Made by a program: the position numbers and the translations under genes. A stretch of 62,230 bases of DNA from Minwuia sp. (GTDB lineage: Bacteria; Pseudomonadota; Alphaproteobacteria; Minwuiales; Minwuiaceae), in contig JARGPL010000008.1 of the NCBI GenBank assembly GCA_029210175.1, positions 1 to 62,230 of the forward strand, given 5' to 3'. The notes beneath the pieces were generated by a model. It saw nothing but the letters and a program-made list of their open reading frames with translations, was not told the origin of the DNA and searched no databases. Positions 12,858-18,037 of this stretch are shown one piece after another (position 1 is the first letter of the stretch; each line of letters begins with the position of its first letter).

Positions 12858-14474
12858 ATGGCCGCAAGAGCAAAATCCATGATCGTTGCCGCACAACCCG
12901 AAGCGGCGGAGGCTGGCGCAAGCATTCTCGCCCGCGGCGGCAATGCCATTGACGCGGCCATGGCTGCCGCGCTGGTACAGGGTGTCGTCGATCCGCAGAT
13001 GTGCGGCGTAGCCGGTTTCGGATCATGTCAGGTCTACATGCCAGACCGTGATGTGCTGACCTTCATCGACTTTCACGGCAAGACACCCAAGAGCGCTACG
13101 CCGAACATGTGGGAAGACATCATCATCGGCGAGACACGCGACGGGTTCGGGTTCGTGCTGGATGGCTTCGTCAACGACCTCGGCTACCAGGCGGTCACCA
13201 CGCCAGGCAGCCTGAAGGCCTATCATGAAGCGGTCAGCACCTATGGCACCATGGACTGGGCCGATATCTGCGCCCCCGCCATCGCACAGGCCGAAGAGGG
13301 TTTCGTCGTGCGTCCGCACGTGCAGTTCTGGTGGGATTCCGGCAGCAGCTATGGCCGCGCCGATGTCACAGACCGTTTGAGGTTCTCTGCCACCGGTCGC
13401 GAGGCCTATTTCAGGGGTGATGGCAGCACGAAACGGGTCGGGGACCGGGTCAACAACCCTGACCTGGCCAGGACCCTCGCACTGATCGCGAAACATGGAC
13501 CGGACGTCTTCTACAAGGGCGAGATCGCGGAACGGATTGCTGAGGATTTTGCAGCGCACGGCGGGCTGCTGACCTATGAGGACATGTCCGAGTACGCGAC
13601 CACCAGCAACGCACCGATCCCCATCGACTATCGCGACTGGCACCTGACGACCAACCAGCCGCCCGGTGGCGGCATCATGCTGGCCGAGATGATGAACATC
13701 CTGGAGAACTTTGACCTGGCCGACATCGGCCACAACACGGTCGAATACATCCGCGTCGTGGCGGAGGCAATGAAGGTGGCGACCGCAGACAAGGATGCTC
13801 ACGTCGGCGATCCGGCATTCTATGACGTGCCGATCGGACGTCTGACGTCGAAGGCGCACGCTGCGGAGGCTGCGGCACGTATCAAGGCCGGTGAAAAACA
13901 TCACGTCGACCGGATCGGCATGGAGGAATCGAAGCAGACGACCCATGTGGCCGTGATCGATTCGGATGGCAATGCGGTCACCATGACCCACTCCCTCGGC
14001 ATGCCGTCAGGGGTGATTACCGATGGCCTCGGCTTCATGTACAACGGCTGCATGGCCGTGTTCGACCCCCGTCCGGGACGGGCCGGATCCATTGCGCCAG
14101 GCAAGGCCCGATTCAGTTCGGTTTGCCCGACGTTCGGGTTCCAGGATGGCAAGCTGCGACTGGCCATCGGTGCCCCCGGCGGGACGCAGATCGCAATGGG
14201 TGTGTTGCAGGCCACCCTGAACGTCATCGACCATGGCATGACAATGACGGAGGCCGTGTCTGCCCCCCGTTTCTCGGCCACATCCGACATCATAGACGTG
14301 ACCAATCGCATTCAGCGTTCGACCCAACGTGCGCTGGAAAGCGACGGGTATGAGGTTGCGCGCAACCCGCTGACATTCGACATCGCGGCGGTGCACGGCA
14401 TCAGGGTAACCGATGCCGGAACGTTCGACGGCGCTGCCGACCCCGGGCATGACGGCGTTGCCATCGGTGTCTGA
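12858..14474 (+). CDS. Gamma-glutamyltransferase family protein
   Basis: This 538-residue Ntn-hydrolase precursor should cleave itself before the catalytic threonine at about residue 361-362 (KQTTHVAVIDSDGNAVTMTH). The N-terminal GGNAIDAAMAAALVQGVVDPQMCG and the late NGCMAVFDPRPGRAGSI segments are typical of the family. Classical GGT is exported and hydrolyses glutathione. This protein has no signal peptide and starts MAARAKSMIVAAQPEAA, so it should be cytoplasmic, and a different amide substrate (as for HpxW-type members) is possible. No transporter or partner gene adjoins it. Confidence 0.85.
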   Translation: MAARAKSMIVAAQPEAAEAGASILARGGNAIDAAMAAALVQGVVDPQMCGVAGFGSCQVYMPDRDVLTFIDFHGKTPKSATPNMWEDIIIGETRDGFGFVLDGFVNDLGYQAVTTPGSLKAYHEAVSTYGTMDWADICAPAIAQAEEGFVVRPHVQFWWDSGSSYGRADVTDRLRFSATGREAYFRGDGSTKRVGDRVNNPDLARTLALIAKHGPDVFYKGEIAERIAEDFAAHGGLLTYEDMSEYATTSNAPIPIDYRDWHLTTNQPPGGGIMLAEMMNILENFDLADIGHNTVEYIRVVAEAMKVATADKDAHVGDPAFYDVPIGRLTSKAHAAEAAARIKAGEKHHVDRIGMEESKQTTHVAVIDSDGNAVTMTHSLGMPSGVITDGLGFMYNGCMAVFDPRPGRAGSIAPGKARFSSVCPTFGFQDGKLRLAIGAPGGTQIAMGVLQATLNVIDHGMTMTEAVSAPRFSATSDIIDVTNRIQRSTQRALESDGYEVARNPLTFDIAAVHGIRVTDAGTFDGAADPGHDGVAIGV

Positions 14475-14712: not shown

Positions 14713-15240
14713 GTGTTTGATCGCAGCCATCTCGGGGCCGAACACCTTTCGCTGCTGGACTATTGGCAGGGTCTGGGCGGCACGAAAGGTATCCCGAGTC
14801 GTAGCGCCGTCAATCCGATGGATGTACCGCGTCTTCTGAAGAACATTGGCCTCATCGACGTCGTGACAGATATCGCCGGATTGACCAGATTTCGATATCG
14901 GCTGATCGGCACCCGGATCAATCATATCTACGGCTCCGATTTCACGAACCGCTGGGTGCATGAGTCAAAGACTGGTGCCCACGGGGAATTCGTGGCGCAG
15001 CTGTATCTGGATGCGGTGACCCGTGCCGTGCCGGTGTTTTCGCGCACGATGATCACTTATGGCGATCAACGCGAACTCCAGACGGACCGCCTGGTACTGC
15101 CACTGTCAGGCGATGGCAAGACGGTCGACATGCTGTTGTTTTCCAACCTGTTCCGGTCAGAGAACCTCACATTCGGACTGAAGCCCTTCCGGTTCGAGGA
15201 CATTGCCGAGGTCGAGGAAAGCCTTCGCATCGCCGCCTAG
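14713..15240 (+). CDS. PAS_5 domain protein (PF07310 type)
   Basis: The 175 residues form a single PAS_5 domain: LLDYWQGLGGTKGIPSRSAV and NPMDVPRLLKNIGLIDV, then FRYRLIGTRI and a later TDRLVLPLSGDG. Such proteins occur in many copies in Rhodospirillales and relatives; ligands and partners are mostly unknown. The start is GTG 14713 with AAAGG nearby, since no ATG fits the conserved beginning. There is no output domain, so it probably signals by binding another protein. A CtrA box and three GANTC sites precede it. metZ follows on the same strand but with its own promoter and riboswitch. Confidence 0.85.
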   Translation: MFDRSHLGAEHLSLLDYWQGLGGTKGIPSRSAVNPMDVPRLLKNIGLIDVVTDIAGLTRFRYRLIGTRINHIYGSDFTNRWVHESKTGAHGEFVAQLYLDAVTRAVPVFSRTMITYGDQRELQTDRLVLPLSGDGKTVDMLLFSNLFRSENLTFGLKPFRFEDIAEVEESLRIAA

Positions 15241-15244
15241 GTGC

Positions 15245-15274
15245 TTGACACACCGTCATCCCAATCCCTAGTTT
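15245..15274 (+). promoter_or_regulatory. Promoter for the metZ riboswitch leader
   Basis: TTGACA (15245-15250) and TAGTTT (15269-15274) are separated by 18 bp. The predicted start is near 15281, exactly at the first base of the SAM-II aptamer, which supports both calls. Confidence 0.65.
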
Positions 15275-15280
15275 CCGATC

Positions 15281-15333
15281 CGCGCCGATTTGAGCCAGCT
15301 TGCGGGCGCGTTAACAAATTCCGCTAAAGAGGT
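15281..15333 (+). ncRNA. SAM-II riboswitch (metA motif)
   Basis: The leader shows the SAM-II layout: CGCGCC then GATTTGA, a short loop with CTTGC, the closing GGCGCG, TTAACAAATT, and the diagnostic GCTAAAGAGG (15323-15332). Stem P1 is CGCGCC (15281-15286) with GGCGCG (15305-15310). The 3' segment forms the pseudoknot and contains a ribosome site, AAAGAGG. SAM-II elements are known upstream of metA, metX and metZ in alphaproteobacteria and switch expression off when S-adenosylmethionine is plentiful, which fits the gene downstream. Confidence 0.88.
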
Positions 15334-15352
15334 GTGTTGTGACCCCCGGGTT

Positions 15353-15375
15353 GCCAGCGCCTCCGCTGGCATTTT
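15353..15375 (+). promoter_or_regulatory. Hairpin between riboswitch and metZ
   Basis: GCCAGCG (15353-15359) pairs with CGCTGGC (15364-15370) around CCTC and is followed by ATTTTG. It could be a weak intrinsic terminator in the leader or a structural element; the T-run is short. Confidence 0.45.
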
Positions 15376-15398
15376 GCGAAGCCGTGAGGACGCACACC

Positions 15399-16691
15399 AT
15401 GACGCTTTCTTCCAAGAATCCCGAAACCATTGTTCTGCATGCCGGTCATCGCGCCGACCCGACCACCGGGGCCGTTGCAGTGCCGATCTATCAGACCACT
15501 TCCTACCAGTTCCAGAACACGGAACATGCGTCGAACCTGTTCGCGCTGAAGGAACTGGGCAACATCTACACCCGCATCATGAACCCGACCTGTGATGCCC
15601 TGGAACAGCGCGTGGCCGCGCTGGAAGGCGGCGCAGCAGCACTTGCCGTGGCCTCCGGTCAGGCAGCCAGCGCGATGGCTATCCAGAACCTTGCCCGTGC
15701 CGGGGACAACATCGTGTCCTCCACGGACCTCTATGGTGGCACCTGGAACCTGTTCGCGAACACCCTGAAGGACCAGGGCATCGAAGTCCGCTTCGTTGAC
15801 CCGGAAGATCCCGAGGCCTTTGCCCGGGCCACCGATGACCGCACCCGCGCCTATTACGCCGAGACCCTGCCCAACCCGAAGCTGAGCGTGTTCCCCATTC
15901 GCGAAGTGGCCGAGATCGGTCGGCCGCTCGGCATTCCGCTGATCGTGGACAATACGGCGGCCCCGATCCTCTGCCGCCCGTTCGATCATGGTGCAGCCGT
16001 CATCGTCTATTCGACGACCAAGTACATCGGTGGTCACGGCACATCCATCGGCGGGCTGATCGTCGACGGCGGCAACTTCGACTGGGACGCCGTGCCAGCG
16101 CGCCAGCCCGCGCTGCATACGCCGGACCCGAGCTATCACGGCGCCGTCTGGGTCGATGCCGTACGCCCGCTCGGCCCCATTGCCTATGTCCTGAAAGCCC
16201 GGGTGACCCTGCTGCGTGATACCGGCGCGGCCATGAGCCCGTTCAACGCGTTCCAGTTCATTCAGGGCCTGGAAACACTGCCCCTGCGCATCCGTGCGCA
16301 TTGCGAGAATGCCGCGCGGGTGGCGGACTATCTGCAGGCCCACCCGAAGGTCGAACGGGTGATCTTCCCCGGGCTGGCCAAGGGCAAGGCAAAGGAACGG
16401 GTCGATACCTACCTGAACCGTGGTTTCGGCGGCCTGCTGGGCTTCGAGATCAAGGGCGGCAAGGACGCCGGTGCATCATTCATCAATGGTCTGGAGCTGT
16501 TCTATCACGTCGCCAACATCGGCGACGCACGCAGCCTGGCCATCCACCCTGCAACCACGACGCATTCACAGCTGACCGCTGAGGAGCAGATCGCGTCCGG
16601 TGTTTCCGACAGCTACGTCCGCCTGTCGATCGGTATCGAGCATATCGACGATATTCTGGCGGACCTGGAACAGGCCCTCGCCAAGGCCTGA
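15399..16691 (+). CDS. metZ: O-acetyl- or O-succinylhomoserine sulfhydrylase
   Basis: This is a 430-residue Cys/Met-metabolism PLP enzyme (gamma-family). The PLP lysine is K208 in VYSTTKYIGGHG; AALASGQAA-type substrate contacts and YTRIMNPT near the N-terminus are present. Length and the inserted WNLFANTLKDQGI region fit the MetY/MetZ group, which makes homocysteine directly from an activated homoserine and sulfide. ATG 15399 follows GAGGA (15386-15390). An in-frame GTG at 15339, 6 bp after the riboswitch's own AAAGAGG, would add 20 residues and put initiation directly under riboswitch control. Which activated homoserine is used cannot be read from sequence. Confidence 0.88.
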   Translation: MTLSSKNPETIVLHAGHRADPTTGAVAVPIYQTTSYQFQNTEHASNLFALKELGNIYTRIMNPTCDALEQRVAALEGGAAALAVASGQAASAMAIQNLARAGDNIVSSTDLYGGTWNLFANTLKDQGIEVRFVDPEDPEAFARATDDRTRAYYAETLPNPKLSVFPIREVAEIGRPLGIPLIVDNTAAPILCRPFDHGAAVIVYSTTKYIGGHGTSIGGLIVDGGNFDWDAVPARQPALHTPDPSYHGAVWVDAVRPLGPIAYVLKARVTLLRDTGAAMSPFNAFQFIQGLETLPLRIRAHCENAARVADYLQAHPKVERVIFPGLAKGKAKERVDTYLNRGFGGLLGFEIKGGKDAGASFINGLELFYHVANIGDARSLAIHPATTTHSQLTAEEQIASGVSDSYVRLSIGIEHIDDILADLEQALAKA

Positions 16692-16751: not shown

Positions 16752-17339
16752 TCAGATATCGAAGAAGACCGTTTCCTGATCGCCCTGCATGTGAATATCG
16801 AACCGATAGACCGGTCCCTGCGGCGTATCCTGCCGCTGGGCAATGACCGTTCCGCGCCGCGCCTCCGGGATTGACGCGAGCACCGGATCCGCCGCATTCG
16901 CCGCCGCCTCGTCACTGAACCAGATGCGCGTATGACAGTGATTGAGCAGCCCGCGCATGAAGACAATCACGTTCAGATGCGGCGCCTGGCGACCATCAAC
17001 CGCGCCGGGCTTGATCGTGTCGAACCGGAACGTCTGGGACGCGTCGGCACCTGTTCCGACGCGCGCAAACCCGCGGAACCCCGTATTGCCGCCCCCTGAT
17101 GGGTTCGGGTACTGACCCGCCGCATCGGCCTGCCAGATTTCCAGCATGGCATCGCCCACTGCCACACCCTGACCATCAAGGACCTGCCCCACAACCGTGA
17201 TCGCCGTGCCGTCAGCCGTGGCGTCACTGATCTGGCCATCGGCGACCTGCGGGTGGCGATACCCGTACTGTCGCGCCGTCAGCCCGTAGGCGAAGAACGG
17301 ACCGACCGTCTGAGAAGGGGTCTGCTTTTCCGCCATCAC
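16752..17339 (-). CDS. pcaG: Protocatechuate 3,4-dioxygenase alpha subunit
   Basis: The 195 residues have the intradiol dioxygenase fold. The sequence begins QTPSQTVGPFFAYGLT, and the beta-sandwich segment LEIWQADAAGQYPNP parallels the catalytic subunit but lacks its full iron-ligand set. PcaG pairs with PcaH to open the ring of protocatechuate into 3-carboxy-cis,cis-muconate. The start overlaps the pcaH stop by 4 bp, giving coupled translation and equal amounts of the two subunits. It is the last gene of the pobA-pcaDCHG run and ends at a strong terminator hairpin. Confidence 0.95.
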   Translation of the reverse strand: MMAEKQTPSQTVGPFFAYGLTARQYGYRHPQVADGQISDATADGTAITVVGQVLDGQGVAVGDAMLEIWQADAAGQYPNPSGGGNTGFRGFARVGTGADASQTFRFDTIKPGAVDGRQAPHLNVIVFMRGLLNHCHTRIWFSDEAAANAADPVLASIPEARRGTVIAQRQDTPQGPVYRFDIHMQGDQETVFFDI

Positions 17340-18037
17340 CGGTCTCCCTCGAACGGGGTTTCAGCGCCGCCTGCCAGCACGATGTCGAAGACATAGCCCA
17401 GCGCAAAGGCTTCCTGCGTCACGCCGATGTCGAAGCGTGAAACCAGCCGATCGCGCGCGCGGGCCGGGACCGCCTGAAAGATCGGGTCCAGGTCCAGCAG
17501 CGGATCACCCGGAAAATACATCTGGGTCACGAGACGACTGGCGATGGTCGGACCGAACAGGGAGAAATGGATATGACCGGGCCGCCAGGCATTGGCATGA
17601 TTGCCCCAGGGGTAGGCCGCCGGACGAATGGTCGTGAAACGATAGACACCGTCAGCGTCCGTCACACTGCGACCGCCGCCGAAGAAGTTCGGGTCGATGG
17701 GCGCGTCATGCTGATCGCCGTCATGGAAATAGCGTCCCGCTGCATTCGCCTGCCAGACCTCCACCAGTTCACCGGCGAGCGGTCGCCCGGCATCATCAAG
17801 CACGCGCCCGGTGACGATGATCCGTTCCCCCAACGGTTCACCGTTGGTGCGGCCATTCATGGTCAGGTCAGTGTCGATGGCTCGCACGTCGTCTTGACCG
17901 TAGACCGGACCTGACGAGGTGGCGGTCCCCTGCGGCAGGGGGATCAGCGGGCGTGTCGGGCCACGCAGTGCCGTCGATTTGTACCCTGCGTCGATGGCGG
18001 GCGGGTGGCTTTGCCAGTCCCGGGCACGATGGCTCAT
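17336..18037 (-). CDS. pcaH: Protocatechuate 3,4-dioxygenase beta subunit
   Basis: The 233-residue subunit carries the non-heme Fe(III) site. The four ligands are visible as Y103 (GRYFHDGD), Y142 (AAYPWGN), H155 and H157 (RPGHIHFS). The N-terminal GYKSTALRGPTRPLIPLPQG is typical of PcaH. It overlaps pcaG by 4 bp downstream and pcaC by 4 bp upstream. With PcaG it forms the heteromultimer that performs intradiol cleavage of protocatechuate supplied by PobA. Confidence 0.96.
   Translation of the reverse strand: MSHRARDWQSHPPAIDAGYKSTALRGPTRPLIPLPQGTATSSGPVYGQDDVRAIDTDLTMNGRTNGEPLGERIIVTGRVLDDAGRPLAGELVEVWQANAAGRYFHDGDQHDAPIDPNFFGGGRSVTDADGVYRFTTIRPAAYPWGNHANAWRPGHIHFSLFGPTIASRLVTQMYFPGDPLLDLDPIFQAVPARARDRLVSRFDIGVTQEAFALGYVFDIVLAGGAETPFEGDR

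Follow-up and report, generated by a model that had tools for sequence, protein, structure and literature searches.

The DNA analyzed here is a 62,230-nt stretch of Minwuia sp. (the window), in which a predicted SAM-sensing RNA with promoter-like hexamers upstream precedes a gene of the methionine pathway. The elements of this leader and its gene, all on the forward strand and with conservation counted over the five leaders of the genus described below, are as follows.

15245..15250, forward strand: −35-like hexamer TTGACA, seen in the sequence and conserved in 5/5
15268..15273, forward strand: weak −10-like hexamer CTAGTT, conserved in 5/5
15272..15348, forward strand: SAM-II aptamer over the whole RF00521 model, 48.0 bits (cut-off 36)
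15323..15335, forward strand: aptamer 3′ strand, GCUAAAGAGGUGU; P2 strand with SAM and predicted partner of 15357-15370 without SAM, from folds whose shuffle controls are not significant
15339..15341, forward strand: in-frame GTG, apparently incidental and unsupported as a start; absent from 4/4 congeners, at chance frequency
15339..15354, forward strand: central hairpin of the predicted ligand-free fold; standard pairs in 5/5, with one A-U to U-A double change
15353..15370, forward strand: hairpin GCCAGCG-CCTC-CGCTGGC, seen in the sequence; one C-C mismatch in L003, L004, and L006
15371..15375, forward strand: ATTTT after the hairpin, a weak U tract; AUUAU in L003, L004, and L006
15386..15390, forward strand: GAGGA, Shine-Dalgarno sequence of ATG 15399, within GTGAGGACGC, invariant in 5/5
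15399..16691, forward strand: metY, O-acetylhomoserine sulfhydrylase (TIGR01326), start ATG 15399 conserved in 5/5

Neighboring genes in the window encode a gamma-glutamyltransferase (12858-14474, forward strand), a protein with a weak MopJ match (14713-15240, forward strand; 64.1 bits against a cut-off of 200), and two protocatechuate 3,4-dioxygenase subunits (16752-18037, reverse strand); a tRNA gene (66.6 bits) lies at 2820-2892 on the reverse strand.

Covariance-model searches place the leader in the SAM-II class. In a cmscan of the whole window, RF00521 (SAM-II) matches 15272-15348 (forward strand) with 48.0 bits against a gathering score of 36 (E = 1e-07) and is the sole riboswitch found; the window's own genome contains this one RF00521 match only (covariance model, E ≤ 0.001), and a motif pattern agrees. 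The RF00521 alignment, whose model carries the P2 pseudoknot without pairs, includes the P1 stem and the SAM-II motifs GATTTG, GCTTGC, CGTTAA, and GCTAAAGAGG; congeners share these motifs, with CGTCAA as a variant in L006. The gene downstream acts in the methionine pathway, as expected for the class. A preliminary description of this DNA had recognized SAM-II and named covariance scoring as the test, which the leader passes: judged by its sequence, the predicted element is a real and ordinary SAM-II riboswitch upstream of a methionine-synthesis gene. TTGACA-N17-CTAGTTT lies directly upstream of the aptamer in 5/5 genus genomes with a similar leader, although a consensus promoter scan calls no promoter at these hexamers.

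The 430-residue protein opened by ATG 15399 scores 616.6 bits against TIGR01326 (O-acetylhomoserine sulfhydrylase; cut-off 495.1) and 329.7 bits against TIGR01325, the metZ model (O-succinylhomoserine sulfhydrylase; cut-off 510.05). The first score is above its cut-off and the second below, and the gene is therefore metY; the name metZ, given to it in the preliminary description, was rejected.

Nine genomes of the order were compared, seven of them from the window's genus. A similar metY leader is present in five of these seven: the window (L001), L003, L004 (the same place as L042, Kordiimonadales bacterium IMCC3096), L005, and L006. The distal ATG is conserved in all five leaders, and sequence conservation extends through the linker, beyond the hairpin and across GTGAGGACGC, up to the ATG; the GAGGA of ATG 15399 lies where the preliminary description placed it.

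A second in-frame start-like codon lies between aptamer and gene. AAAGAGG occupies 15326-15332, GTG 15339 follows six nt beyond, ATG 15399 comes sixty nt after the GTG, and the reading frame is open from the GTG to the stop ending at 16691. AAAGAGG and the two codons stand as in the preliminary description, which took the aptamer's AAAGAGG as the ribosome site of GTG 15339, yielding either a 20-residue N-terminal extension or a leader that is read through. Its spacing and open frame speak for this reading, as does the fact that occlusion of a ribosome site within P2 is a published SAM-II mode (available text of PMC10907184). Comparison within the genus speaks against it. No counterpart of the GTG exists in the four congeners with the same leader (L003, L004, L005, and L006): L005 has the same linker length as the window and an open frame, but GCG replaces GTG, and L003, L004, and L006 have a linker of 70 nt between GAGG and ATG against 66 nt in the window, so that the frame of the GTG position is lost, and the metY frame hits a stop 12 nt upstream of the ATG. 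Over the 20-codon stretch that begins at 15339 and runs up to the ATG, the window and L005 differ by four base changes in four codons, none of them at a third position and all nonsynonymous (the change in the GTG itself included), with no synonymous change; the next 97 metY codons differ by 34 changes, 26 at third positions (Fisher P = 0.0067 against the extension). By this comparison, the stretch between 15339 and the ATG does not look like translated sequence. The GTG is also paired in both predicted folds of the window, the ligand-free and the P2-locked.

The four-nt-longer leaders contain a different small frame: in L003 (1552-1650), and likewise in L004 and L006, a TTG five nt past the aptamer GAGG opens a frame of 22 codons whose stop, TGA, overlaps the metY ATG (ATGA). 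A coupled leader ORF is conceivable here, but the frame belongs among the wrong-frame cases that occur at chance in the survey that follows.

To place the GTG in the context of its class, we used at least 153 alphaproteobacterial SAM-II loci (41 + 112), of which 150 had a gene match and 142 an assigned start. Three were left out for want of a gene match (L039, L195, and L230) and eight because the start codon was absent or implausible (L007, L021, L150, L153, L173, L176, L184, and L188). Separately, the Phyllobacterium metA locus L268, which carries a SAM-I/IV match, was left aside. Homology to six reference proteins served to assign the starts, and some assignments will be wrong; relatedness among several of the source genomes means that the counts are not independent. 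The survey covers nearly all loci among the matches listed, a set that stops short of the weaker ones; kinship and selection affect all three frames alike. Among these matches, assigned starts lie 46-171 nt past the aptamer CTAA. A start codon 9-22 nt past CTAA, in the gene's frame and open, occurs at 13 of the 142 loci (window included), and the wrong-frame equivalents at 11 and 14 of 142; with the five genus loci removed, the corresponding counts among the matches listed are 12/137 for the gene frame and 8/137 and 14/137 for the wrong frames. Since the gene-frame count resembles the wrong-frame counts, proximal in-frame starts are at chance.

GTG 15339 was rejected as a start on these four grounds: its absence from 4/4 congeners, the frame lost in three of them, the exclusively nonsynonymous changes, and the chance frequency across the class. 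We regard initiation there, with its extension or read-through leader, as highly improbable; the comparison of related N-termini that the preliminary description had proposed finds the ATG in 5/5 leaders and the GTG in the window alone. The in-frame GTG looks accidental and peculiar to one species, within what sequence comparison suggests is an untranslated leader.

Further searches gave observations on the wider distribution of such elements. SAM-II scores above the Rfam cut-off at two of 80 metY loci of named genomes among the matches listed (L042 and L045). A pattern of GAGG followed by ATG matched 129 of 385 genomes, and the reversed control matched many too; among the matches listed, the pattern led to one SAM-II locus (G336, the same place as L191), where the ATG is directly followed by TGA. 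Comparison of the leader DNA with plasmids returned 13 records, 11 of them to coding or later parts and two to the aptamer part: Paracoccus seriniphilus plasmid p599725 (L285, 1201-1253; 88.7%), beside hypothetical proteins, and a plasmid of the gammaproteobacterium Legionella adelaidensis (L286, 1201-1264; 81.3%), with only a vWA-domain gene annotated nearby. Judged by sequence similarity, both may be SAM-II elements that lie apart from annotated methionine genes.

On balance, we consider it probable that the SAM-II element is an OFF switch for ATG 15399, that GTG 15339 is incidental, and that an inferred partner exchange links the aptamer's 3′ strand and the hairpin. When SAM is plentiful, the riboswitch would switch metY off. 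In the absence of SAM, the free 3′ strand 15323-15335 would pair with 15357-15370 and break hairpin 15353-15370, leaving the GAGGA of ATG 15399 weakly paired; with SAM, the same strand would be locked in the P2 pseudoknot, the hairpin would form, and the linker may close up to the ATG. Regulation would chiefly target translation start at the distal ATG; ATTTT may contribute weak termination.

Predicted folds agree with the geometry of this exchange. When leaders are truncated after the U run of the hairpin and the 3′ strand is free, GCUA-aa-GAGGUG(U) is paired with (G)CGCCUC-cgc-UGGC around the central hairpin in the minimum-energy fold of 5/5, at −19.5 to −22.6 kcal/mol. The pairs of this ligand-free helix are all standard in the five leaders; the central hairpin also has several one-sided changes. 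The SAM-bound state was an imposed constraint, with the P2 strand locked, rather than a prediction. Under that constraint, the window's truncated leader folds the 7-bp hairpin (−15.8 kcal/mol), and in the window hairpin 15353-15370 and pairing of the aptamer 3′ strand are mutually exclusive. In the truncated leaders of L005, L003, L004, and L006, the hairpin is not the minimum fold when P2 is locked, and in the same test the sister-genus leader L008 forms its terminator in both states.

In full leaders, opening GAGGA-ATG costs more with P2 locked than with the swap helix forced in 5/5: for L001, L005, L003, L004, and L006, respectively, the cost is 3.5, 4.7, 6.0, 6.0, and 6.0 kcal/mol when the swap helix is forced and 8.0, 8.1, 13.8, 11.9, and 13.8 kcal/mol when P2 is locked, a comparison resting on five leaders from few and closely related species. 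When P2 is locked without a forced swap, the opening cost hardly moves in the window (7.0 to 7.6) and falls in L005 (8.9 to 8.1); it rises only in L003 (8.9 to 13.8), L004 (7.1 to 11.7), and L006 (8.9 to 13.6). The swap helix lies 0.2-4.6 kcal/mol above the unconstrained minimum of the full leader and would therefore need to be set during transcription. Shuffle controls did not set the exchange apart from chance. The gain from P2-strand pairing is not significant against shuffled linkers in the five leaders (P = 0.085-0.264) and gives no signal over the 142 loci among the matches listed (mean z = +0.27, 7/142 below 0.05); the difference in opening cost was equalled by 62, 94, 10, and 40 of 200 shuffles for L001, L005, L003, and L004. 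Strand-swap energetics were therefore rejected as proof, with controls not significant for the window and without signal over the 142 loci, and we infer the strand swap from conservation and analogy.

Plain transcriptional attenuation would use the same parts differently: SAM would let hairpin 15353-15370 and ATTTT terminate, the aptamer strand would antiterminate without SAM, and ATG 15399 would be unregulated. The preliminary description, which correctly located a 7-bp hairpin and ATTTT between the two codons, had suggested a transcriptional decision there; this is plausible in that hairpin and strand pairing exclude each other in the window, but the terminator scan is negative. Attenuation is the commonest SAM-II mode in print: many SAM-II elements have putative terminators ahead of the gene (PMC1273637), and in alpha- and betaproteobacteria SAM-II is the class that most often goes with terminators (PMC2258182), as far as the available text of both papers goes. 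A run of five or more T separates aptamer and start in 107 of the 142 leaders among the matches listed (109 if 20 nt past the start are included), and five T follow the hairpin in the congeners G003 and G007 and in sister-genus L008. The window shares with these terminator-type leaders an aptamer above cut-off, promoter-like hexamers upstream, a methionine gene, a distant start, and a hairpin between. It differs in what follows the hairpin: only four U stand there in the window and L005, UUAU takes their place in L003, L004, and L006, the scan of 15353-15370 with ATTTT is negative, and conserved sequence goes on past the hairpin through GTGAGGACGC to the Shine-Dalgarno region of the distal ATG. 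We regard attenuation alone as unlikely here, if the more credible of the alternatives.

Two readings instead make the aptamer's GAGG part of distal initiation. In a split ribosome site, the 30S subunit would be recruited by this GAGG and reach ATG 15399 over a folded linker, with SAM hiding the GAGG. With P2 locked and the AUG open, the linker forms a single closed, folded element in 5/5 leaders, and its energy is reached by only 22, 47, 15, 15, and 11 of 500 shuffles (L001, L005, L003, L004, and L006); equally tight closure, however, occurs in 31, 162, 33, 33, and 19 of 500 shuffles of the same leaders, and linker closure, being suggestive only, was rejected as proof of a split site. Precedents exist in the available text of two papers: the distal AUG2 of Sinorhizobium meliloti metA needs the riboswitch Shine-Dalgarno sequence (PMC9373788), and T4 genes 25 and 38 have folded spacers (PMC3014915). 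The window shares with the T4 genes a foldable spacer between GAGG and ATG; its linker is 66 nt against 22-27 nt, a second GAGGA stands beside the ATG, and the likeness is one of sequence only. Two further facts speak against a split site: a conserved GAGGA already stands before ATG 15399, and the GAGG of S. meliloti is found just past the corresponding strand position rather than within it. We hold this reading to be very doubtful. A broader proposal, that the GAGG copies in the pseudoknot strand and before ATG 15399 compete for one CCUC or share the distal start via the folded linker, which would give SAM control over a start 66 nt further on in a leader that lacks a good terminator, strikes us as improbable too, though less so than the split site taken by itself.

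The preferred OFF switch at ATG 15399 can be set beside characterized systems. The leader of S. meliloti metA has, in order, the SAM-II aptamer, a Shine-Dalgarno sequence with AUG1, a terminator, and an in-frame AUG2; reporter fusions indicated that translation of the native leader begins at AUG2, not AUG1, with the riboswitch Shine-Dalgarno sequence required (available text of PMC9373788). Shared with the window are a proximal start-like codon past the aptamer, a hairpin, and an in-frame distal ATG; there, unlike here, the terminator is proven and has a long U stretch, the gene is metA, and the proximal codon is AUG, whereas the window's proximal GTG occurs in one of five species and a conserved GAGGA precedes its distal ATG. 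Among four rhizobial metA leaders that match RF00521, an AUG1-like ATG is present in both Sinorhizobium records and absent from those of Shinella sp. PSBB067 and Rhizobium sp. NLR16a. One S. meliloti record carrying metA with a SAM-II leader (L264, CP090106.1, 3513728-3514991) is labeled "plasmid pSymB"; its size of 3.72 Mb suggests a mislabeled chromosome.

The direct-occlusion type, exemplified by metX and structure 2QWY (available text of PMC10907184), shares the purine-rich GAGG within the P2 strand and differs in that the window has no conserved start codon close to it; comparison gives no sign of a used start a few nt past the P2 ribosome site, the codon being missing from 4/4 congeners and at chance frequency. 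A literature search for a SAM-II anti-Shine-Dalgarno platform before metY returned no paper. An S. meliloti Ribo-seq study yielded no SAM-II start-site data, its available text naming SAM-II in the reference list only (PMC10117765), and the available text of PMC4117421 and PMC2704228 gave no information on SAM-II starts; SAM-II elements with long loops are named in the available part of PMC2864571.

The remaining congeners bear on the origin of the leader. G003 and G007 have metY leaders with a hairpin and five T, as does sister-genus L008. SAM-II-like aptamers stand before metY in G003 and G007 (L273, ~1285-1352, and L274, the same place); RF00521 gives no match to these at E up to 1, and RF01726 gives none either. 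Their SAM-II motifs are recognizable, with ~30 nt between P1 and GCTAAAGAGG against 13 nt in the window, an insert that by eye can form a GC hairpin, and the aptamer would be either a variant or a decayed SAM-II. Four other loci, L009, L010, L011, and L012 (~1501-1575), give SAM-II matches of 28.7-31.7 bits, below cut-off. The gene after the L010 match encodes siroheme synthase (TIGR01470, 208.1 bits), as do those of L009 and L011 by similarity to L010, and the match in L012 (sister genus) precedes a betaine-homocysteine S-methyltransferase gene (NF005718, 448.3 bits); at these loci, the 3′ strand GCTAAAGCGCC continues directly into the inverted repeat CCACGGAG..CTCCGTGG.

The arrangement in the window may be derived from the terminator type kept by two congeners and the sister genus; as a simple history of the leader, the terminator may have weakened while control moved toward the distal ribosome site. 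For the class, gene-frame proximal starts are no commoner than wrong-frame ones, and a start-like codon beside a SAM-II aptamer should therefore not be assumed to be a regulated start. Of some value is the question of how a SAM-II aptamer would here control a start lying 66 nt further on when no good terminator is at hand; competition or sharing between the two GAGG copies, if true, would give the unexplained use of the distal start in S. meliloti metA a structural basis. The genus forms a small natural series: at one end the leader hairpin is followed by five T, at the other by UUUU or UUAU together with a Shine-Dalgarno region that is conserved. Such a series could serve to test a shift from transcriptional to translational control.
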